A stretch of DNA of 64,000 nt. Source: Anaerostipes rhamnosivorans (lineage in GTDB: Bacteria > Bacillota > Clostridia > Lachnospirales > Lachnospiraceae). Where the stretch lies: the NCBI RefSeq assembly GCF_005280655.1, contig NZ_CP040058.1, forward strand, positions 2,642,001 through 2,706,000. The letters are read 5' to 3'. A program made the translations under genes and the position numbers. The notes below the pieces were generated by a model that ran no database searches, was not told where the DNA came from, and saw only the letters and a list, made by a program, of their open reading frames with translations. Below are positions 43,024 to 57,851 of the stretch, piece after piece; position 1 is the stretch's first letter; every line of letters starts with the position of its first letter.

Positions 43024-44738
43024 AGCACCCTCCTTCCCTGCATCCAATGTTTCACATAATATGTGCTGTTTAGATTGCTGATCTTCACCCCTCCTGAACT
43101 TGAACAGTGTATAAACTGCTTATTCCCAAGATAAATCCCGACATGAGAAGGCCCGGCCTTATAGGTCCCCTGGAAGATTACCAGATCGCCTTTCTTCAAG
43201 TTTTTTTTTGAGATCTTCTTTCCTTTAGTTGCTTGGGCCGCTGCCGTTCTCCCAATACTGATTCCGGCCGCTTTTTTAAAAACATATTGCGTGTATCCAG
43301 AACAATCCGATTTTCCACTTTGCGGGCTTGCGGCACCGAATACATATCGGACTTTCCCTTTATATGTTTTTGCCTTAGAGATTACTTTATCCGCTTTCCC
43401 TCCGGATGCACTTGTCTGCTTAAATCCCGTTCCATTCCCGATGATTGCGTACCCTTTTCGCTTTCCAAATTTATTACACTGTGCTTTTGTCTTCATTAAT
43501 AAATCAAAATGGTAAACTCCATTTTCTATATTAATCCGGCCGCCACGGTCATTGACCTTATGCACTTTTTTGTCCCTGGACGTTTTTGTTCCAAGGACCT
43601 GAATCTGCTTTCCGTATGAAATTGACTTTGGTGCAGCGCAGGTATATTTTGAGGGATCAAGCTTTTTCCCTTTGCAATCATAAAACCCACCTTCCATTTT
43701 ATTGTTGGCCGGGTAATATGCCGTGAACAAAGCTTTTACTTTTTTTCCATTCAGTATCCCTGTGCTTTTTGTCTTATTATCTTCCGTATCACCATCCTGG
43801 GTATCCATGATATTTTTAAATGCAAGTTCTAAAGTCATCATGTGCGTGCCGTTTTCCCAGGTATGGGAGTCGTTTTCGATGTAAAATTTTCCGGTCAGTC
43901 CAGAATCATCATCATGTATTTTTAATCCATATCCTGAGATACACCGGATGTCACCAATCGCAGTAATGGACGCACTTTTTTCTATTCCTGTTAGTGTGTT
44001 CTTTGCTTCTTTTTTTCCGCTGCCTTTGTCAACCGTAATCGCCTCCTGAAAGGTTCCATACGTTTTCATCCATTTCTTGTTTGTTAACGTGCCAATCTTC
44101 TTATTCTTTTCATTATATATTGCGACTTTATTGATCATAGAATCGCTCGTCTCCTGAAACTCTGATTCTGTGATTCCCTCTCCCTGATTCAGTTCGATTT
44201 TAAGTAGTTTTCCTTTTTCTATTACAGAAAGCTTATCCCCTACCATAACCGGCATATATTTCTTTCCTTTTTTCCGATATGCCTTTGTATAAACTGCAAG
44301 GATCATATTGTAGTATTCTTTTTCCTGAAAGAAGATCTTTGATATTTTTACCCCGGTTTTCGCTAAACTTGTTGTCTTAACCTTCAGATCTTTGCAGATC
44401 AGTTTCACAATTTGTTCCGGTTTTTTCTTTTTGAATTTATACGTCCCCTTGCTCCGTAACAGATGAATCATGAAATCATTGCATGTGATAGTTGTATTTC
44501 CTGCTTCTCCGGTCCTGGTTCTTGTTGTTACCTTCCCATGAAACAATTTATTATCTCCATCATAAAAGCAAACAACATCCCCGACTTTTATATTTGGAAT
44601 TTTAAAATTCTTATCTCCTGCCGGATTCACCATTCCAAACTCAAATGTTCTAGCAGCTTGATAGCTACTGCCTGACCATGTATAGTTCGTAGTTATGTCT
44701 GTAATGTCATTGCCTTTCCATTTAACTTTTAGGCTCAT
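43020..44738 (-). CDS. Tail hub XkdQ fused to 3D and NlpC/P60 hydrolases
   Basis: 572 residues in three parts. Residues 1 to about 325 are the XkdQ/gpD-like baseplate hub. About 335-450 is a 3D (RlpA/MltA-like) domain with FTAYYPANN and VNDRGGRI. About 455-572 is an NlpC/P60 peptidase with C479 (SDCSGYTQ) and H532. The fusion would let the tail tip open both glycan and peptide bonds during injection. ATG at 44738 forms an ATGA overlap with the upstream LysM gene. Confidence 0.87.
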   Translation of the reverse strand: MSLKVKWKGNDITDITTNYTWSGSSYQAARTFEFGMVNPAGDKNFKIPNIKVGDVVCFYDGDNKLFHGKVTTRTRTGEAGNTTITCNDFMIHLLRSKGTYKFKKKKPEQIVKLICKDLKVKTTSLAKTGVKISKIFFQEKEYYNMILAVYTKAYRKKGKKYMPVMVGDKLSVIEKGKLLKIELNQGEGITESEFQETSDSMINKVAIYNEKNKKIGTLTNKKWMKTYGTFQEAITVDKGSGKKEAKNTLTGIEKSASITAIGDIRCISGYGLKIHDDDSGLTGKFYIENDSHTWENGTHMMTLELAFKNIMDTQDGDTEDNKTKSTGILNGKKVKALFTAYYPANNKMEGGFYDCKGKKLDPSKYTCAAPKSISYGKQIQVLGTKTSRDKKVHKVNDRGGRINIENGVYHFDLLMKTKAQCNKFGKRKGYAIIGNGTGFKQTSASGGKADKVISKAKTYKGKVRYVFGAASPQSGKSDCSGYTQYVFKKAAGISIGRTAAAQATKGKKISKKNLKKGDLVIFQGTYKAGPSHVGIYLGNKQFIHCSSSGGVKISNLNSTYYVKHWMQGRRVL

Positions 44739-45427
44739 TTTTCTATCACCAGCTTTGTTCCGGGATAAATCCAATGTCCATTACTGGATGATTTCCTCCC
44801 ATGTTTTCTTGCAGTTTTTTCAATGATCGTTTTGTTTTTCTTGTAGATTTTTTTCCAGTTCGATGATTTCCCCGTCTTTTTCTTTGCAATACCCCACAAG
44901 GTATCTCCTTTTTTTACCTTATACGTTGAAGTTTTTATTTTCTTACTTGATCTCTTTTTTGTCTTGCTTTTCTTTTTTACTTTCTTTCCCGACTTGGTAT
45001 TTGTTTTTTTCGGTTGTGTCGTATATTTAACTACCACATATTCTTTTAAACTGAGCGTAAAGCTAACATCTTCGGTTCCGTCATCCTGCCCATACTCGAA
45101 ACTCTCAATAGACACCGCCATGTTGATATTTGGTTTTCCTGTAATCATGAGTTGTGGGGTAACTTTTCCATCTTTCCACGCCTTAATCTTCTTCACATAA
45201 TGCCATGGATCCGTGTTAAATCCTTTGTATTGGCAGAAGTCATATTCCTTTGCAGGGAAAAAGGCACTGATCTCAACTGTTCTCAGTGCCTTTTCTCCAA
45301 GTAAATTTATTTCTCCTTTTCGATGTACGTTTACGCTTGTATTGTTTTGTCCGTCTGAGATCTTATAAGAAGACGGGATGACTGCAAGCCTGATTTTATC
45401 ACTTCCATTGTTTAACCAAAATTCCCT
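44735..45427 (-). CDS. LysM tail protein XkdP-like, AGG start
   Basis: 230 residues: an N-terminal gp53-like domain beginning (M)EFWLNNGSDKIRL, a Lys-rich linker and a C-terminal LysM domain (TYKVKKGDTLWGIAKK). No ATG, GTG or TTG exists in frame until 45196, which would remove 77 codons, including the conserved FPAKEYDF and GFNTDPW segments. The codon before GAA-TTT-TGG is AGG at 45427, 5 nt after GAGGAGG. I take AGG as the start. Confidence 0.83.
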   Translation of the reverse strand, partial: REFWLNNGSDKIRLAVIPSSYKISDGQNNTSVNVHRKGEINLLGEKALRTVEISAFFPAKEYDFCQYKGFNTDPWHYVKKIKAWKDGKVTPQLMITGKPNINMAVSIESFEYGQDDGTEDVSFTLSLKEYVVVKYTTQPKKTNTKSGKKVKKKSKTKKRSSKKIKTSTYKVKKGDTLWGIAKKKTGKSSNWKKIYKKNKTIIEKTARKHGRKSSSNGHWIYPGTKLVIEK

Positions 45428-45437
45428 TTCTTCCTCC

Positions 45438-47633
45438 TCATACTACAACTTTTGATAGTTTCTTCACAATCTCATCCACAATACGGTCAATGTCTTCATC
45501 CGACCTCACGATAATCTGATCGGCCAGTTTTTGAATTATGATTGATTTCTTTCCTTCTTCTCTGGCTTTTTGTATGCTTTTATCGTGCGGCCAAACTTTT
45601 GCACCACTCGGCAGATTAACGAGTTCTCCGCCTTTCTCGTTAATCTGTGCAATACCGCCTTTCCAATTTTGAGTACCTTTTGCAAGAGCCGGGATCTTAG
45701 GAATATTCACTCCAAAGCTTTTCCCTCCATATTTCCCTGGAACCCAAGAAGGAATTTTAATCTTCAACTTATTCAGCCCGCCAATTACAGTATTCACCAG
45801 ACCGATAATCCCGTTCAACGGGCGTTTTGCTATTCCCAGCAATGCTTCAAAAATTCCAGAAAAGATTTTTTTAACGCCCTGCCAAGCCTTTTTCCAATTC
45901 CCCGTAAAAACTCCGGAGATAAAATCTACAATTCCGGAAAAGGCTTTTGTAACACCTTTGATAATATCCAGCGTAGATTTCAGCCATCCCGAAAAATATC
46001 CGATCATTAACTTCATTGCCAGCTTCACGATTTTTAGCAACGTTCCGCCGATAAATTTCGCTATCGGTGCAAGAGCTTTTAGTAAACTCTTCAATATTTT
46101 TATGATTGTTTTAAATGCACTGTTTATATTAGAGGCTATCGCTTTTACGGTCTTTCCTAATTGCTTTACATCAATTCCTGCACTTTTCATGGCCGATATT
46201 ACGAATTTGGCCATCTTCTTTGCACCAGCACTGATTTTATCCCAGTTCTTATAAACTAAGACTGCTGCTGTTACAATTGCCAGCAACGCAATAATCACGA
46301 TACCAGCTGGACTTTTAATCATTGCGGCAATCCCGCCAAATCTATTGATGCTTCTGAGCAATTTTGCCCATGCGAGATATGATTTCCCTACCCAAAAAAC
46401 CATTTTTCCAAACATTAAAATCACCGGTCCGACCGCTGCCGCTACCATAGCGATTTTTACAATCGTTTCCTGTGTCTTTGGATTCAGTTTGGAAAACCGT
46501 TCAGATAGGTCCTTTACCTTATTGGCCAGCTTTGTTGCTGGCGGAACAACTACCTTTAAGACAGCCTCCCCGAAAACCGTCATTCCGTTCTTTACAATAT
46601 TGACGGACTTTCTGATCTTACTCAGCGGTGTTTGAATTGCTTTTAATGCTTTCTCTGTTGATCCCGTTGAATCATTCATTTTTTTCGTTTTCTGATTGAA
46701 TGTATCATATTGGGAACCGGTCAGGGCCAATGCACCAACCAAGGCTCGTGAGTTTCCAAACAACTTCGCCATCTTATCGGACTGGCCGCCTGTTTCTTTT
46801 TTCAGAATCTGAAGGACTCCACTCATTCCCTTCGCCTTGATCATTGCCTGCCCGTTTTGATAGCCATATTTAGCCATCAAATTTTGCATGGACTCTGTAG
46901 GCTTTAACAGCCCAGTAAAAATTCCTTTCATCTGCGTGGTTACTTCTGCCGTATTCCCCGTAACCCCGGTCAACGTCGCCATGGATCCGAATAGCTCTTC
47001 GTAGCTCACGTTCAAGCTTTTTCCAAGCGGAAAAAGTGGCTGCATACTCTGCGCCATTTCAGGAAATGTCGTAACGCCTAGTTTCTGCGTCTGGAATGCC
47101 AAGTCAGATATCTTCTTTGCAGTCCCTTCTGAAATGCTATTGTAGCCTTTCATACCGGAAGAAATCAGGGATACAGAGTCTTTTACCTCAGCTCCACCTG
47201 CTTTCGCGGATTTAGCCATGGCATCAAATATCTTTTCTGTTTTCTTCCCTCCATCACCCAGACTTGAAATTGCTTGATACATTCCTTTCGCTGTTGTATC
47301 AAGCCCCAGCCCGGTATCATTCGATGTTCGCAGGACCGCATCTTTGTAGCCCTGTAAATGGCTCGTATTGTCTAACAGGGTATTAATCTGCCCCATGTTC
47401 CTTTGGAAAGTGTCAGCCATCTTTCCACTCGCCATCCCAACCCCTATGATTGGCATGGTGACTTTTCTGGTCAGAGAAGAACCAACAGATTGAATTGATT
47501 TTCCTGCCTTTTGAATCTGTTTTGCCTGCCGCTGCATCAGCCCCGTCTGATGCTCCATATTTTTTGCAGCCTTTGACAGTGGTGATGAAAACTTATCGAC
47601 TAATCTGAGCGTCGCATCAATTACTCTGCTCCT
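45438..47633 (-). CDS. Tail tape measure protein (XkdO), AGG start
   Basis: 731 residues that set tail length and are ejected with DNA. N-terminal coiled coil, hydrophobic middle with several membrane-like segments (ETIVKIAMVAAAVGPVILMFG), C-terminal basic region. The first ATG at 47558 would drop (M)SRVIDATLRLVDKFSSPL, the standard N-terminus of these proteins. AGG at 47633 precedes AGC-AGA-GTA and lies 6 nt after AGGAGG. No other start is available in that frame. Confidence 0.85.
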   Translation of the reverse strand, partial: RSRVIDATLRLVDKFSSPLSKAAKNMEHQTGLMQRQAKQIQKAGKSIQSVGSSLTRKVTMPIIGVGMASGKMADTFQRNMGQINTLLDNTSHLQGYKDAVLRTSNDTGLGLDTTAKGMYQAISSLGDGGKKTEKIFDAMAKSAKAGGAEVKDSVSLISSGMKGYNSISEGTAKKISDLAFQTQKLGVTTFPEMAQSMQPLFPLGKSLNVSYEELFGSMATLTGVTGNTAEVTTQMKGIFTGLLKPTESMQNLMAKYGYQNGQAMIKAKGMSGVLQILKKETGGQSDKMAKLFGNSRALVGALALTGSQYDTFNQKTKKMNDSTGSTEKALKAIQTPLSKIRKSVNIVKNGMTVFGEAVLKVVVPPATKLANKVKDLSERFSKLNPKTQETIVKIAMVAAAVGPVILMFGKMVFWVGKSYLAWAKLLRSINRFGGIAAMIKSPAGIVIIALLAIVTAAVLVYKNWDKISAGAKKMAKFVISAMKSAGIDVKQLGKTVKAIASNINSAFKTIIKILKSLLKALAPIAKFIGGTLLKIVKLAMKLMIGYFSGWLKSTLDIIKGVTKAFSGIVDFISGVFTGNWKKAWQGVKKIFSGIFEALLGIAKRPLNGIIGLVNTVIGGLNKLKIKIPSWVPGKYGGKSFGVNIPKIPALAKGTQNWKGGIAQINEKGGELVNLPSGAKVWPHDKSIQKAREEGKKSIIIQKLADQIIVRSDEDIDRIVDEIVKKLSKVVV

Positions 47634-48182
47634 TTTGCGCCTCCTCTCTTTCTTCGCATTCTTTCAGCAGATACCCATACACCACTTGTTGCTGATTTGG
47701 CCCCATATTCATGTGTTGCTCTGGCAGAATATTATGATCACGAAAAAGAAGATACCCCATGCTGATATCTTCTTTTTCATAGATTAGTTTTTTATTGTTT
47801 CCGCCTTAACTGATGGTGCACCCAATTCGGAAATTGCATCAGCAATCTCCATGACCTCATTTTTAAATATCATCTTTGCCAGATCTTTTGGAGTGGCTGC
47901 TCCAAAATGCTCTTGAAGACCTTTATCCCTTAGGTCTGGATTCACTACTCCTTCTGTTGTAATAAGCAGGTTAATGTCATACATTTTTGTCAGATCCGGT
48001 TTACCTGTCTCTGCGTTTACTGCATTACACTGTAATTCAGATAACCTTTCCGGATCAATTTCCCTGATTGTAATTTTCGGATCTCCGATTAATTCTTGCA
48101 TTCTGCCTGACTCATATGTTTTTTCTTTCTTCTCTGTTATCTTCTTTTTATCAATCTGTAATAATTTATCAATCAAATTCAT
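47617..48182 (-). CDS. Tail assembly chaperone XkdN with -1 frameshift product
   Basis: The zero-frame product (47784-48182, 132 residues, MNLIDKLLQIDKKK) is XkdN-like. At its end the heptamer A-AAA-AAC (47787-47793), a classic -1 slippery site, lies just before TAA. Slippage gives a longer protein continuing KLIYEKEDISMGYLLF... for about 56 residues to a stop at 47617. Long-tailed phages use such gpG/gpGT pairs to load the tape measure. ATG with AGGAGG upstream. Confidence 0.78.
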
Positions 48183-48193
48183 TTTATCTCCTC

Positions 48194-48622
48194 CTATACC
48201 GCGTCAATCAATTCTGCATTTTCAAAAGTAAATGCATATGACTCTTCACCTAATTTTCCAGCTTCCCAGTCCGCTATCGTTAATTCATCAAAGCTTACGC
48301 CGGTTATTTTTACTCGCTCATTCCCAGCTGCGGCTGGATCTTTTAGATTTGAAATAATCGTTATATCCGGCATTTTCCCTTGTTTTACATCCTCAAGCAA
48401 CAGTTTCAACATATACGAGGACACTTTATTTAATTTTAATGTACCAGTTCCCTCAATCTCCGTGATCTTCTTTCCTTTTGTGAGTGTCCCGGTCTGGTTT
48501 ACATCTGCTTTTGTAATCTTATATTTTGCCTCTAACCCAATCGCTTCAGCCATGTATTGTTCATTTAACCAGACTTCACCCCAAGTTCCGTTAATTACTT
48601 GATTTTCTTTGTAGCTATCCCT
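48194..48622 (-). CDS. Tail tube protein XkdM-like, AGG start
   Basis: 142 residues forming the inner tube inside the contractile sheath. The frame from AGG at 48622 reads (M)DSYKENQVINGTWGEVWLNEQ; the INGTWGEVW segment is the conserved beginning of XkdM proteins. The first ATG at 48553 would remove it (23 codons). AGGAGG lies 7 nt before the AGG. No ATG, GTG or TTG is in frame in between. Confidence 0.86.
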   Translation of the reverse strand, partial: RDSYKENQVINGTWGEVWLNEQYMAEAIGLEAKYKITKADVNQTGTLTKGKKITEIEGTGTLKLNKVSSYMLKLLLEDVKQGKMPDITIISNLKDPAAAGNERVKITGVSFDELTIADWEAGKLGEESYAFTFENAELIDAV

Positions 48623-48633
48623 TTTCCTACCTC

Positions 48634-49677
48634 CTAAATTGTAATCTCCATGATAATGTCTTCGATTGCGTCAACAATTCCAATACTCGCTTTCAGGAAG
48701 ACGCTGTCACCCGTGTTTGCTTTTTTAAGCTCTTCGCTGGACATTTCAGTGGTATCATACCCTGCTGCCTCTAAATATTCTTTGTTAGCTTCGATGTCAA
48801 TTTCCACTGCGGCCGCAGATAAAACACTCTGTTTTACCAAATCATCCAAATAATTTTGAATTGCCGATACTAAAAGACACTTATTGTCGTATGTATTCGG
48901 AACTTTCCCGATCCAGTTATTACGGACCGTGCGCGTAATATCTGCCCGTATGGTGTCCATAATGTCGACAATCTTAATCTTCTTTTGCTGTTCCCCCTTT
49001 TCTGAAGTTATTGTTTTTAATGAGTTTACACCCCTTGCGATCCGGATATCTTCTCCATCGTAGAAAAGAATCAGCTTTCCTTCGTTGATTGCATTGTCCA
49101 TTTCGGCTTTCTTCATTCTTGTACAATCCTGTACTTCCGGAAGGACAAAATAAGTTGCAGACATTGTGATCGGTGTTCCTGCAAGAAGTCCAGCGATACG
49201 CGGACAAAACTGATCTGCGGTATAATCTTTACCATCAACTGTCGTATTCTCTGTTGCGTAATTTATAACGGCTTCATGATCAGCTTCATAATTCATAACT
49301 GCCTTTACGTTCTTCCCCTGCGCTCTTTGCTCTTTTACCCAATCTACAACTTTTTGTGAAACCCCTTCTGCCGTTCCGTTAAGTGCAAGGTAATCAATTT
49401 GCTCGCTTTCCAGCGTTTCAAGCGCGGTATCTATCTCGGTAAATCCTTCTCCCGCAAAAACAATAACTGTCCGTTTTGGCTTCTGTTCTCCCCCAATCAA
49501 AGACATTTCAACTGCATTTTTATCTACTCCCGATGGAGCCTTGTCCCCCGGAGCAAGTTTTAGAATTTTTTCTTTATTTGTTGCTGCTAGGATTAACCCA
49601 ACGGTTTTAGAACCGGCTCTATCTGTTACACTTTTGGCCAGTTCTGAAAATCTGATGCTAATTTGTGGCATTCCCAT
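48634..49677 (-). CDS. Phage tail sheath protein (XkdK-like)
   Basis: 347 residues. Contractile sheath subunit with GLILAATNKEKILKLAPGD at the N-terminus and the sheath C-terminal domain (IVDIMDTIRADITRTVRNNWIGK). Proves the tail is contractile (myovirus morphology). ATG with AAGGAGG upstream, in contrast to the adjacent tube gene. Confidence 0.92.
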   Translation of the reverse strand: MGMPQISIRFSELAKSVTDRAGSKTVGLILAATNKEKILKLAPGDKAPSGVDKNAVEMSLIGGEQKPKRTVIVFAGEGFTEIDTALETLESEQIDYLALNGTAEGVSQKVVDWVKEQRAQGKNVKAVMNYEADHEAVINYATENTTVDGKDYTADQFCPRIAGLLAGTPITMSATYFVLPEVQDCTRMKKAEMDNAINEGKLILFYDGEDIRIARGVNSLKTITSEKGEQQKKIKIVDIMDTIRADITRTVRNNWIGKVPNTYDNKCLLVSAIQNYLDDLVKQSVLSAAAVEIDIEANKEYLEAAGYDTTEMSSEELKKANTGDSVFLKASIGIVDAIEDIIMEITI

Positions 49678-50119
49678 GTGTTATTTCCTCCTTTACTCTT
49701 ACACCTTTGATTTTCGGTTCTGTTGCGATTTGACGAATATCCTCGTAAAATTCAAGATTGAATGTAAATTGCATGATGTTCTGTGCTTTCCCGGTGTATC
49801 CCAGTTCAGTATCCATGACTCTTAACTTCTCTTCACAAACTTCAATATAGTCTCCAATCCCCTCTCTAATCTTTTCGGCTATTTCAAGCTGTTGAGATTC
49901 ATCCTTGTCTTTTTGGAAGAACGTTGTCTCAATCATGCATTGTGATTTTACAATGCTGATTGTTGCTCTTTCTCTGAAAATAAGCGGAATAATACGTACA
50001 AAAAAAGAAGGGGTTTTATATCCTTCTTCTACTTCTATCGAATATATTTTTTTAATTTCTGGACATTGCTTTTTCAGAATCTTGATATAGGCATTCTTTA
50101 TGCTTTTTAATTCTATCAC
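49658..50119 (-). CDS. Tail completion/terminator protein (XkdJ/DUF6838-like)
   Basis: 153 residues; GYKTPSFFVRII and EFYEDIRQI match the small protein always found before the sheath in PBSX-like tails. GTG at 50119, 7 nt after GAGGAGG. Overlaps the sheath gene by 20 nt. Confidence 0.78.
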   Translation of the reverse strand: MIELKSIKNAYIKILKKQCPEIKKIYSIEVEEGYKTPSFFVRIIPLIFRERATISIVKSQCMIETTFFQKDKDESQQLEIAEKIREGIGDYIEVCEEKLRVMDTELGYTGKAQNIMQFTFNLEFYEDIRQIATEPKIKGVRVKEEITHGNATN

Positions 50120-50574
50120 TTATTTGCCTCCTCACATATCCTGTTTAACATCCGTTTCGCCCGCTCTGCATGTTTTTCATGCCACTTTGCAATAACCGGC
50201 TCTTTGATCCGTTTCCCATGAACAAACCCGACCGTCTGACCTCCATTTTTGAGTTTCTTCCCTTTTCTGCTGACCGGAGTGACCATCTCGTGTCCATTGT
50301 TAATCAAATGAAAATGAGGATTCTTTTTTCCTCCCTCTGCAAGAAAGTTTGTTTCAAAATCCGCTCTGAAACGATATATCTTGTCAAATCGAAATCCTTT
50401 TACTATGTTTCCGGTTCCCTTTTTTACCTTATTCCATGTCTCCTGCTTCATATCTTTTTTAAATTCAGACTGTTCTTTTTTCAATGTACTTTCTGCAAGA
50501 TCCGGGAATTTTTTTGCGGCGGCCTCTAACTGTTCTTCAATTTCTTCAATTCCATCGAAGTCAAAAGAGATCAC
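50116..50574 (-). CDS. HK97 gp10-like tail-completion protein
   Basis: 152 residues with a long helix of Glu/Lys repeats, then the gp10-family region containing GGKKNPHFHLINNGHEMV. Joins the tail to the head connector. GTG at 50574 has AAGGTGAT upstream. Confidence 0.85.
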   Translation of the reverse strand: MISFDFDGIEEIEEQLEAAAKKFPDLAESTLKKEQSEFKKDMKQETWNKVKKGTGNIVKGFRFDKIYRFRADFETNFLAEGGKKNPHFHLINNGHEMVTPVSRKGKKLKNGGQTVGFVHGKRIKEPVIAKWHEKHAERAKRMLNRICEEANK

Positions 50575-50914
50575 TGATATCACCTTCTTTTATATACTCT
50601 GTGCACTGAATCTCAAGCATTTGGTGTTGTTCCTCTATATCCGCAACATATTTCACTTCTAATTTCTTCCCCTTATACTCAAGGATTGTATCCGTTTTAA
50701 TGTCTTCCCTGTACCTTGTGTAAATAACATAGGAGATCTCCGGAATAATTTTTAATGCCTCATAGTATTCTCCTCCCCTAATAGATTTTACAGTCGCCCA
50801 TATTCTTTTTCCCTTTATTTCACGATGAACCGTCTGTCCCATTGCATCTTCTGTTTCTTCTCTTCTTATAACAAAAATCCTTTTGTTCATTTTACCAATA
50901 TTAATTTGCTTCAT
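50561..50914 (-). CDS. Head-tail adaptor protein
   Basis: 117 residues. SPP1 gp16/HK97-adaptor-like beta barrel: MNKRIFVIRREETEDAMGQ and IRGGEYYEALKI. ATG preceded by AGGAGG with 5-nt spacing. Confidence 0.85.
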   Translation of the reverse strand: MKQINIGKMNKRIFVIRREETEDAMGQTVHREIKGKRIWATVKSIRGGEYYEALKIIPEISYVIYTRYREDIKTDTILEYKGKKLEVKYVADIEEQHQMLEIQCTEYIKEGDISDLF

Positions 50915-50923
50915 TAGGTCCTC

Positions 50924-51214
50924 CTAAATCAAATTTTCTGAATATTGATAAATGATGTTTTCCACGACCCGATTCATGTTCTGGTTGTCAACATACATTC
51001 TTCGGTTATCATACATATCTTCTACCAGAACAAGAATTGCTACTGTCAGATCATCGCTGGAATTGATCTTTTGATCATCAATTCCAGTCTGATTTTTTAT
51101 GTAGTCGATTGCTGCGGAATGAAATATTTCAATATCCTTAAAATCACTTTCTTCGGGATCGTCAATTTTTAGATAGTCAGCTATGTATTCCGGCGTGAGT
51201 TCATTTGCCTTCAT
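50924..51214 (-). CDS. Head-tail connector protein (gp6-like)
   Basis: 96 residues, helical: YIADYLKIDDPEE and AVAILVLVEDMYDNRRMY are typical of DNA-packaging connector proteins following HK97-type capsids. ATG with GTGAGGA upstream. Confidence 0.85.
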   Translation of the reverse strand: MKANELTPEYIADYLKIDDPEESDFKDIEIFHSAAIDYIKNQTGIDDQKINSSDDLTVAILVLVEDMYDNRRMYVDNQNMNRVVENIIYQYSENLI

Positions 51215-51350
51215 TCTTTGTTTTCCTCACTTTTTCAATGTATCCGACTTTCAGTAGGTCTTTTACGACCTCCGTCTCTTCACATTCTCTGACTTCTCCT
51301 TTTGACATTGTGATGGTACCACAAAATTTTTTTAATGCTCGAATCTCCAT
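51201..51350 (-). CDS. Small head-region protein
   Basis: 49 residues (MEIRALKKFCGTITMSKGEV...), possibly a Rho-N-like or collar-associated small protein. ATG at 51350 follows AGGAGG by 5 nt. Located between capsid and connector, where a short gene is common. Confidence 0.65.
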   Translation of the reverse strand: MEIRALKKFCGTITMSKGEVRECEETEVVKDLLKVGYIEKVRKTKNEGK

Positions 51351-51359
51351 AGACTCCTC

Positions 51360-52553
51360 CTATGACGCTTTCATTTTCAGCTTCGCAATCTTCTGAACGT
51401 CTGCCACCTTTGTATCAATTTCCATCCATGCAACCACTCCAACGGCGTGCATCGTCGCATACTTTTCCCTCAGCACCTCGATAGATGCTTCTTCTGTTAC
51501 CTTTACTGCAAGACCGCTCATATCCCCGTAGATAATTGCATCTTTCCCCGCTTCCATCTTTTCCATGTTTGCAGAGCAATACACATCTTTTCCAAGCAAA
51601 GTATAACCCCACTTCGCAGATACATCCCGATTTAATAAATAATTTCCATCTGCATCCTTCAGTTTCCGAATTGCCTTTCTAGTATCTTTATTCATAATCC
51701 AGATACATTCTCCTTGATACGTATCCGGCACTTCTTCCTGTACATCAATCAGCTCATCGGCTGTGATGGCGTTTGCTGCTCCCGCAGTTATTACCTGTTT
51801 TACCCCTTTCATTCCGTCTGCTTTATCTGCTGTTCCGATCAGACATTCATGTTCTACAAATTTCGCAATTGCTTTACCCATATATTCTATGACTTTCTGA
51901 AGAACATTGAAATTGCTGTTATTCATCAGTTTTTTTGATACTAGCGTCAATGCCCCTGCCAGGAATCCGGATAAATCAATTGACTTGAAGGATCCGGAAC
52001 TTGAAGTCAATTCCGTAAACTCATCCGCATAAGCCATTGTAATAGAACTTGTTTCTTCGTCATAATATGGAATTGAAATATTTCCGCCTACATTATACCG
52101 ATCTGACATCTGATATACCGGACAAATATCAACGACCTTTTCAATGATTTTATTCATGATAGAATTTGGAATGACTGCCCCGTTATCCGTAAATGTTAAG
52201 TTTTCCGCGCGCTCTTCTGTTGCGTTGCCTCGGAGATAATCAACGAACGCTCTTTCTTCGACACTGAGTTCCCCCGTTTTTTGTTCCTGCTGCTCTGTTT
52301 TTTTCTCAGGATACATAGAACGAACTTTTTCTTTTGCCTTAATCGTCGCATCAATCCCGGCTATCTTTTTTTCCAGGTCGTCAAATTTCCCTTGCTCATC
52401 ATTGCTCATTGCACGCTCTTCTATTTCCGCCGTTTCTACAATCCCCTGTAATTCTTCCAGATAGGCAGCTCTCTGCTCTTTTAGACCCTTAATGTTTTCT
52501 GCTCTTTCCTGGATTCCTTTTTTTGTTGTTACAATTCTTCTCTGCTTATTCCT
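51360..52553 (-). CDS. HK97-fold major capsid protein, AGG start
   Basis: 397 residues: an N-terminal coiled-coil delta domain that is removed at maturation, then the capsid fold (DRYNVGGNISIPYYD, LIGTADKADG, TYQGECIWIMNK, YCSANMEKM). The first ATG at 52409 would remove 48 codons of the delta domain. AGG at 52553 begins (M)NKQRRIVTTKKGIQE, 8 nt after AGGAGG, and overlaps the protease stop by 8 nt. There is no conventional start in that interval. Confidence 0.87.
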   Translation of the reverse strand, partial: RNKQRRIVTTKKGIQERAENIKGLKEQRAAYLEELQGIVETAEIEERAMSNDEQGKFDDLEKKIAGIDATIKAKEKVRSMYPEKKTEQQEQKTGELSVEERAFVDYLRGNATEERAENLTFTDNGAVIPNSIMNKIIEKVVDICPVYQMSDRYNVGGNISIPYYDEETSSITMAYADEFTELTSSSGSFKSIDLSGFLAGALTLVSKKLMNNSNFNVLQKVIEYMGKAIAKFVEHECLIGTADKADGMKGVKQVITAGAANAITADELIDVQEEVPDTYQGECIWIMNKDTRKAIRKLKDADGNYLLNRDVSAKWGYTLLGKDVYCSANMEKMEAGKDAIIYGDMSGLAVKVTEEASIEVLREKYATMHAVGVVAWMEIDTKVADVQKIAKLKMKAS

Positions 52554-53148
52554 TAATTTTCCCTCCTAAATTTTTAATTCTGTTTTTGTATGATGAAAGA
52601 TCCAGTTTTTCTCCAGCTCTTAAATCCTCATATACGGCCTCTGTCTCCTCGGCCCGCTCCTCAATCACTTCTTCCCCTTCAGAACGCAAATAGATCGAAG
52701 TTCCTACGTAACATGGAAGCTTCCTTTCGTCAATTAAAGATACCTCTTTCAGGTCAAGATCTTCCACGTATCTTCGCTTTAGACCTGTTTTCATTTCTTC
52801 TTCACTTGCTTTTTTCTCGACAAAACCAAAGGACCAGCCCCGAAGTTTCTTTTCTTTTGCTTTTTCCACGATCTCAGCGTCCGTGATCTCCGCAATCGCC
52901 CGAAGTCCGATATTGTCTTCAAATAATTTTATATTTTCCTTTGTACTTCCAAGTCGCCTTGAATGGTCGTGGTTCAATAAAATTTCAACATCATCTGCCC
53001 GCTCTAATGCTTTTTTAAAAACTCCTGGGACAATTTGTTCTATAAATTTTTCTCCGGTTCTTCGGTCCCTGATTGGCCTGCTATCTCTCCCGACTGCATT
53101 GACGTATCCGTCAATGAGGACGGATTGTTCTCTAAGTTCAACTCTCCT
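52546..53148 (-). CDS. HK97 prohead protease, AGG start
   Basis: 200 residues, serine protease U35 family. The family N-terminus RVELREQSVLIDGYVNAV is in frame from AGG at 53148, inside the end of the portal gene (109-nt overlap). GEKFIEQIVPGVF and the HDHSRRLGST catalytic segment follow. The first conventional start, TTG at 52977, would remove 57 codons and leave only part of the fold. A G-rich ribosome site (AAAGGGGG) lies 7 nt upstream of the AGG. Confidence 0.83.
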   Translation of the reverse strand, partial: RRVELREQSVLIDGYVNAVGRDSRPIRDRRTGEKFIEQIVPGVFKKALERADDVEILLNHDHSRRLGSTKENIKLFEDNIGLRAIAEITDAEIVEKAKEKKLRGWSFGFVEKKASEEEMKTGLKRRYVEDLDLKEVSLIDERKLPCYVGTSIYLRSEGEEVIEERAEETEAVYEDLRAGEKLDLSSYKNRIKNLGGKIKE

Positions 53149-54359
53149 TCTTCTTCCCCCTTTCTTAATTTGTTTAGATCAATCGTTTTATTGGTATTTA
53201 ACACATAAACTTTATTTGCAACCGGATCAAGTAATCCATCGTTTAATCCGAGTTTTATAAATTCGACTCCCAGCTGTGGCATCTTCTCTTTTTTTCTCAC
53301 TTCATCTACTTGCAAGAATCCTTTTTCAATGCCTGTCCCGTATGCAGCGTATCGTTTTTCAATATCGCTTCGGTTCAGATCATCTGTATCTGCTTCAAAG
53401 TAATATTCCCCTTTTTCTGATTCAAGCAGCATTGCCCGGTTGATTGCAGTTTCCAAAGCTTTTAGGACGTTGTTGATCTCATATTTAATAAAAATCTTCT
53501 CATCTCGCTCTGTGGCTTTTCCTTCAATCATTGCCGGCGGAGTTCCGACAATTTTGCAAACTTCTATTCCATTTGTTTTTTTATTTTCATTGAGCTGCAT
53601 CTCAACTGAAGTGTTCGATGCTTCTTTGAAGTCCATACCTTCATTTAGAATGACAACATTTTCTCCATTATTTGAGTAGAGTTCTTTCCACGCTGCTTTC
53701 AATTCATCCATTTGCTCTTTCTTCAATCGGCGTTCTGATTTTAAAAATCCTTTTTTATTTCCACCTTTTGAAACAAGATTTTTTTCAAATTTTAAAGCTG
53801 TGTATGCCACCGACAACGATTCCTTATTTTCTTCTATGATACTTTTTCCCCTGATCCCATCTTCTGTATTTCTCAATAGCCTGATCCAGTCTTCCGGATC
53901 ATATGTATTCCCCTGTACCATGATCTGATAATCCTTGAAAATAACATCAGCATTTTCCCGAAAGGAAATATTGCTTTCTTTTACATAGTGCAGGCTTTCT
54001 ATCTTCCTTCCACTTTTATTGATATATGCGTACCCTCCTTTTCCCAGGAAATAATCCATTATTAGCGCATGTTTGAACTGGTATCCATCCAATGTATCCC
54101 CGGTATCTTCATTTAAAAGGACCGTTCTTTCGTCTTCTACCACTTCATTTTTATCACCGTTCCTTTTATAAAGCTTGATAGGGATTGCCGCCACTGTATC
54201 CGCTATTTTAAGAATTGCCCCCGCAAGAGATGGAATGTTCATCGCTTTTTCCCGATCCATTTCAACACCATAGATAAAGGCTCTTAACAGAGCTTCGTTC
54301 ATTTCCGGTGTTTCTTTAACTTCAGGCTCCGCCCGTTCCTTTCTTTTAAAAAACTTCCT
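53040..54359 (-). CDS. HK97-family portal protein, AGG start
   Basis: 439 residues. Dodecameric DNA gate at the capsid vertex. Core motifs include TVAAIPIKLYKR, KHALIMDYFLGKGGYAY, and a C-terminal hydrophilic tail. From AGG at 54359 the N-terminus reads (M)KFFKRKERAEPEV, a standard portal start, 6 nt after AAGGAGG. The ATG at 54302 lies 19 codons inside and has no ribosome site. The frame has no ATG, GTG or TTG before it. Confidence 0.86.
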   Translation of the reverse strand, partial: RKFFKRKERAEPEVKETPEMNEALLRAFIYGVEMDREKAMNIPSLAGAILKIADTVAAIPIKLYKRNGDKNEVVEDERTVLLNEDTGDTLDGYQFKHALIMDYFLGKGGYAYINKSGRKIESLHYVKESNISFRENADVIFKDYQIMVQGNTYDPEDWIRLLRNTEDGIRGKSIIEENKESLSVAYTALKFEKNLVSKGGNKKGFLKSERRLKKEQMDELKAAWKELYSNNGENVVILNEGMDFKEASNTSVEMQLNENKKTNGIEVCKIVGTPPAMIEGKATERDEKIFIKYEINNVLKALETAINRAMLLESEKGEYYFEADTDDLNRSDIEKRYAAYGTGIEKGFLQVDEVRKKEKMPQLGVEFIKLGLNDGLLDPVANKVYVLNTNKTIDLNKLRKGEEEGELNLENNPSSLTDTSMQSGEIAGQSGTEEPEKNL

Positions 54360-54371
54360 TTTATACCTCCT

Positions 54372-56066
54372 TCATGCCATCTGACATATAAATCCATCAT
54401 TTCCATACAACATATCCTGTTGTATCAAATAGATTGCATTGATTAAGGAAATCACCATATCGACTTTTCCACTTGATTTTTTCTTATTCACATATTTGTT
54501 CAAATTCGTATCTTCTGTGCACCTGGCATTCTGAAAGTTGATTTCAAGTAAACGATTACTTTCATACTGAAATTCATGCTGAAGTATTTTTTCCTTCAAT
54601 AATTTCGTTGGCATATGAAGTACAGAACTATGCTGTTTAATATCGACACATTCAAATCCTTCTGCCTCAAGTTTTTGCACTGTTGCAAGCGCGTTCCACT
54701 TATCGTAACCAATTTGGACAATCTCAACATCAAATTTCTTCTCGATATCCAGGATAAATTTTTCAATTTCCCCATAATCAATAACTTCGTCTCCGCAGGC
54801 ATAACAATATTCATTTCTGATCATTTTTTTATAATCGACATGCTCCTTGTTTGACTTGTATTCAATCTTGTCAGCTGGCAAGAATCCAAATACTTTTGCA
54901 TAAATGACTCCTTCTTCCTCTGTTACCATAGCGACTGCCGTATTATCGTCCGTCATGGAAAGGTCAACTCCCAGCCATACGCGGCGACCTCTCCAAAATT
55001 TCAAGTTTTGTTCTATCCTACATTCTTTAACTTTTTGTACATCAATATAACCTTCGGTTCCAAGCCCTTTGTACAGAATGTTGCTGTGCTTACATAAATA
55101 ATTTTCCCTTTTATTTTCATAGATAACTGCCAGATTACGTTTCTTTTTAAGTTCTTTAAAAATATATTCATGTGCTACTGCCACCGGATTACTTTGGTAA
55201 ATAACACGATCATCAGTTTTCCATGCATCCCCGGTCTGTAACTCCTGATCCGGCTCATATAACAAAGAAAAATATCGACGGTCATCAGTCAGACCGTCAA
55301 GCGTTTTCTTTGCTATGTCAATTTCATCCACTAACACATTATTATCGTTCGGATATTGTGTTGAAATGATGATCCCCAGCTTGTTAAATAATGTGATCTG
55401 AGAAGAACGCATAGCTTCTACGGGGTATTCATCCAATGCACCAGCTTCATCCGCAAGGAATGTATTTGCAAGTTTACCGTCCATCCCGTCTTTGCTATAT
55501 GCAAGCGGGGTGTATTCGTTTTCATTTAAATTACAAATGATCTGACTTCGTAAAAGCTTAAATGCAGATTCATCTTCATCGTATAGTGCTGGTGATACCT
55601 TGATTATTTTTCTGATTGCTTTTTGTAGCTCGCTGGAAAGTGACAAATCTGGTGCAACGGAAAAGAACCGGGAAAAATCCGGTTCTGTAAGCATCAATAT
55701 AATAAATATCACTGCGCTGGTGAAGGTCTTGAAGTTCTTTCTTGCAATTTCCAATAATGCAGTGACATAAAATCGTGAGTCAAATTCAGAATTTCTTAGC
55801 TTTGTACAAAGAGTTGCCGTAATAAACAACCATGCGTAATCTTCCAGTCCATCATAAATGCTGCATCGAAGATCCGGGTGGATCATGATTTTTAATAACC
55901 GGCATATTCTCTCATACGCCTCTTCATCGACATAAGCATCCGGATCATTGTCATCTGCAATATTAATCCAGTCCTTCGCCTGTTTTTTCACATAGTTTGG
56001 TACCTTTCCATCTGTTTCAGTGACACACCACGCCGCATACTGATAAGCTTTCCCGTCACGAACCAT
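54372..56066 (-). CDS. Terminase large subunit
   Basis: 564 residues. ATPase domain with Walker A-like ARKNFKTFT and Walker B FLADEAGAL, then the RNase H-like nuclease domain with GVDLSMTDDNTA and IGYDKWNA. YmfN/Terminase_1 family. ATG at 56066 with GGAGG 6 nt upstream, so packaging uses one ATG-started and one AGG-started subunit. Overlaps the small subunit by 11 nt. Confidence 0.94.
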   Translation of the reverse strand: MVRDGKAYQYAAWCVTETDGKVPNYVKKQAKDWINIADDNDPDAYVDEEAYERICRLLKIMIHPDLRCSIYDGLEDYAWLFITATLCTKLRNSEFDSRFYVTALLEIARKNFKTFTSAVIFIILMLTEPDFSRFFSVAPDLSLSSELQKAIRKIIKVSPALYDEDESAFKLLRSQIICNLNENEYTPLAYSKDGMDGKLANTFLADEAGALDEYPVEAMRSSQITLFNKLGIIISTQYPNDNNVLVDEIDIAKKTLDGLTDDRRYFSLLYEPDQELQTGDAWKTDDRVIYQSNPVAVAHEYIFKELKKKRNLAVIYENKRENYLCKHSNILYKGLGTEGYIDVQKVKECRIEQNLKFWRGRRVWLGVDLSMTDDNTAVAMVTEEEGVIYAKVFGFLPADKIEYKSNKEHVDYKKMIRNEYCYACGDEVIDYGEIEKFILDIEKKFDVEIVQIGYDKWNALATVQKLEAEGFECVDIKQHSSVLHMPTKLLKEKILQHEFQYESNRLLEINFQNARCTEDTNLNKYVNKKKSSGKVDMVISLINAIYLIQQDMLYGNDGFICQMA

Positions 56067-56607
56067 TCAGCGCCTCCATCAAAGGATTTTTCTTTTTTTC
56101 TGTTTTTTTTGGCACTGAACGTAAAGCAGATGCAATGGTCATAATGTTTTCTTTTTCGATTTCTAACAGCATTTTTCTTTTTGATTGCACCTGCCGATCC
56201 AGAGCAATCAAATTTTTTTGCATACTATTTTCCATCCCATAAAATTCTTTGAGTGTCATTTCCTCATGTTCAATTAATTCATTCTCTTTTTCTTGAAGGT
56301 CGCAGAGCTGTTCAAACATCTTTTCTCTTTTCTGCTCAAACTCAAAACACTCGGCGTAAAGAAGACAATACCTATTGATCACAACTCCGTACAAATCATC
56401 ATTTTTTTCTATATTTTTTAGTAATTTTTTTATTCTGAGGAACTCTTTATGAGCAATTTTATTCTGTTTTACTTCCGGTTTTTCTCTAATTTCTTCCCCT
56501 GTCAACAAAGATTGTTCAGCCTGCTTGCGTTGGCGCATTTCCTTCTTTGTCCGATGGGAACGACCTTCCATCTCAATTATATTTGTTGGCTTTGTGGGTG
56601 TTGGCCT
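56056..56607 (-). CDS. Terminase small subunit (P27 type), AGG start
   Basis: 183 residues that recognise the packaging site. P27-type proteins begin MPxPxKPT... and continue through EMEGRSHRTK; that N-terminus is here only if translation starts at AGG (56607), 7 nt after TAGGAGG. The first ATG at 56571 is 12 codons inside and lacks a ribosome site. VKQNKIAHKEFLRIKKLL and a long coiled coil follow. Confidence 0.87.
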   Translation of the reverse strand, partial: RPTPTKPTNIIEMEGRSHRTKKEMRQRKQAEQSLLTGEEIREKPEVKQNKIAHKEFLRIKKLLKNIEKNDDLYGVVINRYCLLYAECFEFEQKREKMFEQLCDLQEKENELIEHEEMTLKEFYGMENSMQKNLIALDRQVQSKRKMLLEIEKENIMTIASALRSVPKKTEKKKNPLMEALNGS

Positions 56608-56610
56608 TAA

Positions 56611-56736
56611 TATCCCTCCTATCTTTTCAAATTTGAAAACCTGATGTGGGAATAAATTATAGATAAAGGTAGGGCGTCGGTCTACACGACCGATGGTATT
56701 TCATTTTTCCACCCCCAGGGGGGTACCTGCTACATC
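56611..56736. other. Candidate cos/packaging region
   Basis: 125-nt non-coding interval between HNH and small terminase, where HNH-associated cos phages have their cohesive ends. It contains ACCCCC-A-GGGGGGT (56711-56724), a hairpin CGGTC-tacac-GACCG (56678-56692) and the palindrome TTTTCAAATTTGAAAA (56624-56639). Confidence 0.5.
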
Positions 56737-57120
56737 TTATCTGCTACTGTTCTGCTCCTCGACAATCCGTTTCAATATCCTTCTGCTTATGTTCCCCTTC
56801 TCTGCCTCTTCGTGATGATACCCGCAGAGAGTAATCAGGTTGTCATCATCCAGCCGCTTATCCCATGCTTGACACAACGGCTCAATATGATGCACTGATA
56901 TGTTTTTATAGTTATGTTCCTCTACTGTTCCCGCGATCTTTCTGATGCAGCATTGGCAAAGGTAAGCGTCTCTTTCCCGGATCCTTATGCTTTTCTTTGT
57001 CCATACCCTTGATCTGTGGAACTTTGTTTCCTTTGTATTCTTCTTATTTGTTTGTGGCTTTTTCCCACAGTTGAACTTACTGTCATGGATCCTTCCACAA
57101 TATTTACAACTTTTCAGCAT
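56737..57120 (-). CDS. HNH endonuclease
   Basis: 127 residues with zinc-binding Cys pairs (KSCKYCGRIH; CQCCIRK) and the HNH core ISVHHIEPLCQAW ... NLITLCGYHHEEAE. HNH proteins next to terminase assist cos cleavage. ATG preceded by AGGAGG with 5-nt spacing, and 18 nt downstream of the tRNA gene, so the two are co-transcribed. Confidence 0.93.
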   Translation of the reverse strand: MLKSCKYCGRIHDSKFNCGKKPQTNKKNTKETKFHRSRVWTKKSIRIRERDAYLCQCCIRKIAGTVEEHNYKNISVHHIEPLCQAWDKRLDDDNLITLCGYHHEEAEKGNISRRILKRIVEEQNSSR

Positions 57121-57138
57121 CTTATCCTCCTGACAAAA

Positions 57139-57209
57139 TTGCGGACATAGGAGTCGAACCTATAACTTCGGCTAAGGAGACCGACATGATACCCTTTCAC
57201 TAATCCGCG
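57139..57209 (-). tRNA. Initiator-like tRNA with CCU anticodon
   Basis: 71-nt cloverleaf. Acceptor CGCGGAT pairs with GTCCGCA except C1xA72, which is unpaired as in bacterial initiator tRNA; discriminator is A. D stem GTGA/TCAT with GG in the loop; anticodon stem TCGGT/GCCGA (29:41 and 30:40 are G-C, 31:39 is T-G); loop CTCCTTA gives anticodon CCU; 4-nt variable loop; T arm ATAGG-TTCGACT-CCTAT. No CCA is encoded. It decodes AGG. An elongator tRNA-Arg(CCU) would normally have a paired 1:72. Located at the head of the late operon whose genes start with AGG. Confidence 0.85.
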
Positions 57210-57319: not shown

Positions 57320-57721
57320 CTATATTTTTTTTGACAGCAAGAAGTAAAACTTTCTACGTCTATCATAGAACATATCCTTTTCGCACGGAATGTTCATTAC
57401 TGTCTTTAAGTATTTGAATGTAACATTTTCTTCTGTAACTGCTTTTAGAAGATATTGATAGATATCACCATCCGCCTCAATGGCTGTTTGTTCAATTATC
57501 TGGCAATTTCTATCCGCCTGCTGCCGAACTATTGCAAGATTCTGTGTCGCATCATTACTCCCATTTCCCTTTGGCATCCCGTCCATGTCCTGGCTTCCCA
57601 CCGTGTCCGTCTTGTACTTTAATATATCCCGGAACTCCGTGTATCTGAGTGCAAAATGATAAGCCTGGTAGAATGCATGCTTAGTAATTCCCCATTTCCT
57701 CTCAGACAACGGTTTAGGCAT
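57320..57721 (-). CDS. Putative late-gene regulator (RinA/ArpU-like)
   Basis: 133 residues, helical, sigma-like end YDRRRKFYFLLSKK. Such proteins precede HNH-terminase modules in phages of Firmicutes and are often late-transcription activators; the assignment here rests on position and that C-terminus. ATG at 57721 with AAAGGAG upstream. The GTG at 57787 would overlap the preceding small gene. Confidence 0.6.
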   Translation of the reverse strand: MPKPLSERKWGITKHAFYQAYHFALRYTEFRDILKYKTDTVGSQDMDGMPKGNGSNDATQNLAIVRQQADRNCQIIEQTAIEADGDIYQYLLKAVTEENVTFKYLKTVMNIPCEKDMFYDRRRKFYFLLSKKI

Positions 57722-57851
57722 GTTTTTTGTCTCCTTTTGTTCCAGGATAATTAATCCTGCATCCTTGTCCAGCTTTCCAGTAATCACATTCCTTGCACTT
57801 CTTTTTATTACAGTAGTTCTCTGCTTCCTTTAAAATTTCTCTCTCTGTCAT
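57714..57851 (-). CDS. Small cysteine-rich protein
   Basis: 45 residues with four Cys (NYCNKKKCKECDYW, GCRI), a probable zinc knuckle. ATG at 57851; its stop overlaps the start of the regulator gene by 8 nt. Function unknown. Confidence 0.6.
   Translation of the reverse strand: MTEREILKEAENYCNKKKCKECDYWKAGQGCRINYPGTKGDKKHA

Follow-up and report, generated by a model that had tools for sequence, protein, structure and literature searches.

A prophage-encoded CCU tRNA as a putative second initiator for AGG-started virion genes

How are virion genes translated when AGG stands where their homologues have a start codon? The question is raised by a prophage in a 64,000-nucleotide stretch of the Anaerostipes rhamnosivorans genome (contig NZ_CP040058.1, positions 2,642,001 to 2,706,000; below called the window, whose own numbering is used), in which seven late genes appear to start with AGG and the prophage encodes a tRNA with the anticodon CCU. 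A preliminary description of this sequence proposed that the tRNA is an initiator reading AGG, without which virion proteins could not be made. With a probability of about 0.9 we hold that the phage tRNA serves as a second initiator for AGG, probably charged with methionine, and locks virion assembly, internal AGG codons being read as arginine. At the level of sequence comparison this proposal is strongly supported; from the comparisons we infer charging, formylation, initiation, dependence on the tRNA and the lock, or 'translational key', itself.

AGG at the start of seven late genes

The late module of this contractile-tailed prophage lies downstream of the tRNA on the same strand. It encodes an HNH endonuclease, the small and large terminase subunits (TerS and TerL), portal, protease, capsid, connectors, sheath, tube, chaperone, tape measure, a LysM protein, baseplate, holin and amidase. 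The 20 late genes listed in the window start with ATG (10), AGG (7), GTG (2) or TTG (1). The AGG starts, at 56607, 54359, 53148, 52553, 48622, 47633 and 45427, are preceded at 5-8 nt by a strong Shine-Dalgarno (SD) sequence, which is AGGAGG at six genes and AAAGGGGG at the protease gene. The first conventional in-frame codons are found, in the same gene order, at 56571, 54302, 52977, 52409, 48553, 47558 and 45196, that is 12, 19, 57, 48, 23, 25 and 77 codons downstream. These details agree in full with the preliminary description. Its statement that an A always precedes the AGG is true of the window and does not extend to relatives, where the preceding base is T at the protease gene of the relative L021 and T or C in others. 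The tRNA and the seven genes are as follows.

57139..57209, minus strand: initiator-like tRNA, anticodon CCU; C1xA72, G29:C41, G30:C40, U31.G39, U20, A73
56056..56607, minus strand: terminase small subunit, AGG start (phrog_83; AGGAGG, 7 nt)
53040..54359, minus strand: portal protein, AGG start (phrog_12, residues 1-416 after the AGG; AAGGAGG, 6 nt)
52546..53148, minus strand: head maturation protease, AGG start (phrog_80; AAAGGGGG, 7 nt)
51360..52553, minus strand: major head protein, AGG start (phrog_10; AGGAGG, 8 nt)
48194..48622, minus strand: tail tube protein, AGG start (phrog_365 'tail protein', a homologue being named phage tail tube protein; AGGAGG, 7 nt)
45438..47633, minus strand: tape measure protein, AGG start (phrog_991, residues 2-728 after the AGG; AGGAGG, 6 nt)
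44735..45427, minus strand: LysM tail-region protein, AGG start (phrog_380 'endolysin', residues 1-228 after the AGG; AGGAGG, 5 nt)

The tRNA is the only one that ARAGORN found in the window (57139-57209, minus strand, anticodon CCT). Against the Rfam tRNA model it aligned from end to end and scored 47.1 bits (gathering score 29), and its positions 1 (C) and 72 (A) are unpaired. The earlier report of a CCU tRNA with a C1xA72 mismatch is borne out. Minimum free energy folding of the window tRNA alone did not yield the cloverleaf.

Comparison with homologues shows the AGGs to occupy predicted start positions. In a relative whose portal protein is 95% identical (L021/L001) all seven AGGs are kept and the flanking bases are changed; the tRNA is likewise kept, despite changed sequence upstream of it. 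The codon aligned with each window AGG was read in 79 loci: 76 loci with portal homologues (including the AGG user L270), L022, and the tRNA-bearing loci L093 and L179. At the protease gene it was conventional in 67 of 76 homologues (ATG 46, TTG 13, GTG 8), and at TerS in 39 of 43 (ATG 37, TTG 2), one further TerS having AGG in the tRNA-bearing L093. ATG was found at the aligned position in 4 of 13 tube, 3 of 8 tape measure and 2 of 3 LysM homologues; the N-termini of portal and capsid were too variable for an exact codon alignment. One locus in which no tRNA was found (L302) has AGG at the aligned portal position, without an SD sequence. The preliminary description had suggested checking whether relatives that lack the tRNA have conventional starts here, and the ATG, GTG and TTG codons of most protease and TerS homologues were counted in its favour.

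The proteins might instead start at the internal ATG, GTG or TTG codons, the stretch between them and the AGG remaining untranslated. Databases do contain shorter versions, such as tail tubes of 119 residues, and nine tube proteins begin at the internal Met 24, as would be expected from a gene caller that ignores AGG. However, family profiles and homologues reach the AGG, the SD sequences stand at the AGG, the AGG is kept in L021, and the short database versions look like gene-caller output, so we regard internal starts as hardly credible. In the protein homologues Met falls exactly at the AGG position in 56 of 120 tail tubes and in 69 of 120 LysM proteins.

The database tail tube proteins P0007, P0009, P0034, P0041, P0044 and P0047 are truncated to 119 residues at one and the same internal Met; the window tail tube and P0007 are 99% identical. 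Such entries suggest that more AGG phages may be hidden by gene callers.

Three neighbouring genes are listed here.

54372..56066, minus strand: terminase large subunit, ATG start, a conventional neighbour of the AGG genes (PF20441, PF03354)
56737..57120, minus strand: HNH endonuclease gene, ATG start at 57120, directly after the tRNA (Pfam PF01844)
57320..57787, minus strand: small gene just upstream of the tRNA (phrog_11237, unknown function; no Pfam match)

By position only, the 57320..57787 gene is a candidate late regulator. A promoter and terminator scan gave a score near the shuffle mean. In L021 a second tRNA (called Ala, anticodon CGC; L021:7076-7148) stands directly before the CCU tRNA, where the window sequence differs.

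AGG starts in phages that carry the tRNA

Viral contigs, genome contigs and family genomes were scanned for similar tRNAs with patterns blind to start codons. The pattern fixed A73, C40, C41 and A or T at position 72, and left base 1 free. Nineteen phage records, the window included, carried an initiator-like CCU tRNA without A20 (18 sequences if the window and the near-identical G103 are taken as one). AGG starts were counted by a strict rule: a strong SD, an AGG, and no supported conventional start before the AGG or within 12 codons after it. In the window the rule finds six of the seven AGG starts and misses the protease gene owing to its different SD.

Strict AGG starts were found in 15 of the 19 tRNA-bearing records, G458 and G454 each having a single candidate, weak or lone. 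A comparison of related prophages for co-occurrence of the tRNA and AGG starts, which the preliminary description had proposed, came out in its favour: 56 of 392 open reading frames (ORFs) had a strict AGG start in 22 tRNA-bearing loci, against 2 of 1256 in 89 related phage loci with no such tRNA found. There was none among 320 host ORFs in 340 kb of host chromosome. When 15 other codons were put through the same rule, the highest counts in the tRNA-bearing loci were GAA with 11 (controls 10) and AAA with 10 (controls 31); ATT gave 7 in the tRNA-bearing set and 2 in the controls. After removal of near-identical genes the AGG count was 45 of 357 (Fisher p ~2e-28, a value that exaggerates certainty, as the phages have common ancestors).

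A further view was given by 80 portal loci. AGG starts occurred in four of them (L262, L265, L266 and L270), three of which have the tRNA, and no CCU tRNA was found in the 76 non-AGG portal loci; 22 of the 80 received no start under the rule. In portal loci with 8 kb of upstream sequence the gene began with AGG in 3 of 3 with the tRNA versus 0 of 18 without it (Fisher 7.5e-4), 5 of these 18 having no assigned start. Relatives that keep AGG starts and lack the tRNA had been named in the preliminary description as a finding that would speak against it. The sole such case among the 80 portal loci is L270, a 5.2-kb contig with only 1.4 kb upstream and with AGG also at the protease and capsid genes; its tRNA could lie off the contig end.

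The strong SD sequences in the window might allow ordinary fMet-tRNA to start weakly at AGG, the phage tRNA being unrelated. Against this, strict AGG starts are nearly confined to tRNA-bearing phages, and homologues from phages in which the tRNA was not found mostly have ATG, GTG or TTG at the same positions. Moreover, capsid and tube proteins, which are abundant, would be in short supply. We consider this explanation highly improbable.

One scan of viral contigs allowed CCU tRNAs to be compared with each other. It gave 58 loci, 39 of which folded as CCU tRNAs by a pairing rule. Before any counting of AGG starts these 39 were split by eye into 'initiator-like' tRNAs and the rest (nicknamed 'soil', the habitat being unchecked), and this split coincides with absence or presence of an A after the D-loop GG (A20). 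Strict AGG starts were found in 13 of the 20 loci without A20 and in 1 of the 19 with A20, near-duplicates included. The 1:72 pair was open in 19 of 20 and in 13 of 19, respectively. As a marker of AGG phages the open 1:72 pair was not borne out on its own; it is the absence of A20 that marks them.

A looser count of SD-preceded codons, from which the near-duplicates L199, L206, L228 and L207 were dropped and in which 14 of the 19 A20-bearing loci were counted, gave AGG at 36 of 692 in 19 tRNA-bearing loci, 2 of 714 in 14 control loci, 4 of 361 in the 14 'soil' loci and 21 of 1170 in the host. The strict rule was preferred because SD-rich sequence yields AGG by chance in the looser count.

Thirteen phage CCU tRNAs scored as U1xU72 (L181, L183, L192, L197, L200, L201, L208, L209, L214, L229, L230, L232 and L233) carry an A behind the D-loop GG, and most have a shortened D arm. 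Of these loci only L214 shows a strict AGG start.

Head and tail classes recur among the AGG genes across phages, and the exact set differs. G451 has AGG at protease, major head, major tail and tape measure (PHROGs) and at portal; G450 at the same five genes (portal by PHROGs) and G452 at four. In these three phages TerS, connectors and the other listed ORFs have a conventional start or none assigned. AGG was found at TerL, portal, major tail and tape measure in G453, at major head and, with a weaker SD, TerL in G455, at portal and major head in G459, and at portal, major head, tail terminator, major tail and further unassigned ORFs in G457. G098, which we take to be SPP1-like, has AGG at the tape measure gene and, with weaker SDs, at two minor head genes; its portal is ambiguous, and a 160-residue AGG-started ORF of unknown PHROG was taken for the tail tube. 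In the stretch of G454 that was examined, the only AGG start belongs to an ORF resembling the N-terminus of the window capsid.

The recoded codon is concentrated in late or structural genes and tied to the tRNA, with L186 and L210 as exceptions. These two have similar-looking small ORFs upstream of the tRNA as AGG candidates (L186:3995-4507, without a PHROGs match, and L210:1399-1884, both on the minus strand), from which the AGG gene set may not be purely late. Every same-strand AGG candidate found follows the tRNA in the window, G103, L093, G463, G454, G450, G459 and G457; in G098, G453, G455, G456 and G458 some precede it. The tRNA at the head of the operon, as described for the window, is therefore not a general rule.

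If the start system is real, it may exist not for the timing of late genes but as a way round host defences or toxins by which the normal initiator tRNA is destroyed: VapC reportedly targets initiator tRNA (cited in excerpts of PMC12482277), and a different anticodon loop might escape. TerL and several connectors of the window stay ATG or GTG, however, and we consider this purpose distinctly unlikely.

Other searches added little to the collection. An exact anticodon-arm search in viral contigs gave 20 loci, with a tRNA at the match in one (L001) and none in 19. Of 92 genome-contig stretches, 80 (L056-L135) were inspected by eye and were nearly all ordinary Lys or Arg elongators with a leading CGCGG before the tRNA; L093 and L135 were the useful ones. 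The pattern matched in 2 of 397 family genomes, and a class-wide search matched 4 of 393 genomes, namely the window's own and three apparent chance matches (unfolded). Blast of the tRNA against phage isolates gave 409 records, 2 of them covering at least 80%; among the 20 listed the best E value was 0.2, the matches being tRNA-Trp or tRNA-Thr where annotated. L022, a related phage without a CCU tRNA, has two tRNAs upstream of its HNH gene (L022:6465-6617), a tRNA-Ile (UAU) and one whose anticodon has four bases (CCCC), and both look like elongators.

Some unusual tRNAs were met on the way. Two Clostridia contigs from metagenome-assembled genomes, not obviously phage, have initiator-like tRNAs with the anticodon CUU, which would read AAG (L103:5264-5327 and L086:5817-5878). 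A phage contig has an initiator-like tRNA (C1xA72) with the anticodon CAG, which would read CUG (L165:3168-3242), with no clear excess of CTG starts in the stretch examined. One member of a phage tRNA array is initiator-like and has an anticodon loop of eight bases (CTCAATAA; L168:3932-4008). A Neobacillus piezotolerans scaffold has a host-type tRNAfMet with a CCU anticodon beside a tRNA-Asp (L159:73-148), a CAU copy also being present in the genome.

Anatomy of the tRNA and the two meanings of AGG

Comparison of the 18 AGG-type tRNA sequences shows an initiator-like anatomy. The 1:72 pair is not Watson-Crick in 17 of 18 (CxA, AxA, CxU, UxU or GxA, base 72 being fixed as A or T by the search). 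Pairs 29:41 and 30:40 are G:C in all 18 (C40 and C41 being fixed by the search). A11:U24 was found in 13 of 18 as parsed; it is U:A in the window, L054, L190 and L191, and L210 was parsed as G:U, probably one base out of register. Base 20 is U or C in all 18, and A20 is present in both host Arg tRNAs compared (CCU and UCU). All 18 are more identical to the host fMet tRNA of the window than to its Arg-CCU tRNA. The two features expected of an elongator tRNA-Arg(CCU), A20 and a paired 1:72, were both missing (A20 in 0 of 18; 1:72 unpaired in the window and in 17 of 18). The anticodon is not the CAU of tRNAfMet: it is CCU by search design, and CCU in the window. The system would function like an initiator tRNA without having all of the tRNAfMet features tested, and is not classed as tRNAfMet.

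Several observations weigh against an AGG initiator. A73, C40, C41 and the A or T at base 72 are not independent evidence, since they were fixed by the search pattern. The third initiator G:C pair is missing from all 18 tRNAs, 31:39 being U.G (14) or C:G (4); L219 has a U1-A72 pair, although a weak one; the window tRNA has U11:A24; and identity to host Arg-UCU ties with that to host fMet in 3 of 18, fMet being higher in the other 15. UxU at 1:72 occurs in 13 of the 19 A20-bearing CCU tRNAs, only one of which has a strict AGG start, so the open pair alone is not diagnostic. Among the 19 tRNA-bearing records the strict rule finds no AGG start in four: L179 and G462, where an AGG candidate was seen by eye, G461, which is ambiguous, and G460, with none in 5.7 kb. 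The sole candidate in G458 is an unassigned ORF upstream of the tRNA, and one match in G451 falls inside a methyltransferase-like ORF (labelled by eye).

The meaning of AGG inside genes was assessed from the residues of homologues aligned with internal AGG codons. In 11 window genes these were Arg in 47.5%, Lys in 22% and Met in 0.3% (1200 homologue residues, 22 columns); in ORFs of three other AGG phages they were Arg in 36.5%, Lys in 21% and Met in 0.4% (1892 residues, 40 columns). Since internal AGG aligns with Arg or Lys and hardly ever with Met, only the start appears to be recoded, and comparison thus shows separate meanings for AGG at starts and within genes. The host encodes its own tRNA-Arg CCU and UCU, and AGG is rarer inside phage late genes than in host genes (7.2 versus 10.4 per 1000), so a role in elongator supply is unlikely. 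Alternatively the whole code might have changed to AGG = Met, or the tRNA might be an elongator for rare AGG codons; the AGG-to-Met code of uncultured Bacilli, whose tRNA-CCU lacks A20, is a known case (PMC8629427). Given the alignments, the host tRNAs, the AGG usage in late genes and the open 1:72 pair, we consider either next to impossible.

A different question is which amino acid the tRNA carries. The AGG starts may be real and the CCU initiator charged with arginine or another amino acid, which would put fArg or Arg at the first position of virion proteins. According to excerpts of PMC9976931, bacterial Arg determinants include C35 and U36, and A35 is used by methionyl-tRNA synthetase (MetRS). 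On the other side, the main determinant of Escherichia coli arginyl-tRNA synthetase, A20 (PMC9976931), is missing from all 18 AGG-type tRNAs and present in both host Arg tRNAs; in 18 of 19 loci the CCU tRNAs that do bear A20 were accompanied by no strict AGG start; and the rule drawn from the AGG-to-Met Bacilli (PMC8629427) puts the AGG-type tRNAs among the Met acceptors. Arginine charging is in our judgement unlikely. Methionine seems likelier because A20 is missing and A73, G2:C71 and C3:G70 are kept. In excerpts of PMC8629427 a CCU tRNA with A73 and without A20 is classed as a Met acceptor, with G2:C71 and C3:G70 as support, and C35 is said to touch the least critical anticodon nucleotide for MetRS (Shulgina and Eddy).

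Proposed mechanism and known systems

We propose that late transcription would yield the tRNA, which is encoded among the late genes, and that it would be charged, most likely with Met, so that residue 1 of the proteins would be (formyl-)Met. The open 1:72 pair would be recognised by the bacterial formylase and would help to exclude the tRNA from elongation; for the formylase the relevant features are the open pair and A73, for bacterial Arg identity A20 and C35 (excerpts of PMC9976931). The formylated tRNA would be taken by IF2 to the ribosomal P site and pair there with the AGG 5-8 nt after a strong SD sequence, and internal AGG would be read as arginine by the host's own tRNA-Arg. Host ribosomes without the phage tRNA would start poorly at AGG. 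Virion proteins would then appear only once the tRNA is present, which would place a translational lock on virion assembly. A natural, virus-owned second initiation channel of this kind, with a CCU initiator (most likely fMet), private virion genes, codon meaning set by position and assembly locked to one tRNA, is in our view very probable.

Standard teaching gives bacteria a single initiator tRNA, which reads AUG and its near-cognates. If the proposal is true, a start codon can change its meaning while the remainder of the genetic code stays as it is, synthetic biology gains an orthogonal initiation pair ready for use, truncated or missed virion genes in phage annotation are explained, and the gating of late phage genes by start-codon choice becomes testable. 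Searches of an open-licence library, with subscription papers and most preprints outside its scope, listed neither a natural AGG start system in bacteria or phages nor a phage-encoded non-AUG initiator. If confirmed by proteomics the system would be categorically new.

Phages recode stop codons with suppressor tRNAs in lytic genes. In both cases a phage tRNA alters, or would alter, the decoding of a late gene set and may time it; stop-codon recoding differs in acting on stop codons in elongation, not on initiation. With bacterial tRNAfMet (CAU) the phage tRNAs share the open 1:72 pair, A73, G2:C71 (17 of 18), C3:G70, G29:C41, G30:C40, U or C at position 20 and, as parsed, often A11:U24. They differ from it in being phage-encoded, in their anticodon CCU, which would read AGG, and in having U.G or C:G rather than G:C at 31:39.

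The AGG-to-Met Bacilli (genus UBA7642, family CAG-288; excerpts of Shulgina and Eddy 2021, PMC8629427) likewise have a tRNA-CCU without A20 that carries Met identity features and reads AGG; an excerpt of PMC13092985 on this reassignment names Ca. Enterosoma. There AGG means Met throughout genes and the tRNA is a host tRNA thought to derive from tRNA-Arg, whereas here the tRNA belongs to the phage and would serve the start only. Two phages inferred to share the AGG-to-Met code carry no tRNA-CCU, according to the same excerpts (PMC8629427). Engineered initiator tRNAs, such as those for UAG starts (PMC8576571, PMC13232202), are laboratory constructs in whose published excerpts AGG is not named as a start codon, and they share with the proposed phage system its central feature, an altered anticodon that starts translation at the matching non-AUG codon.

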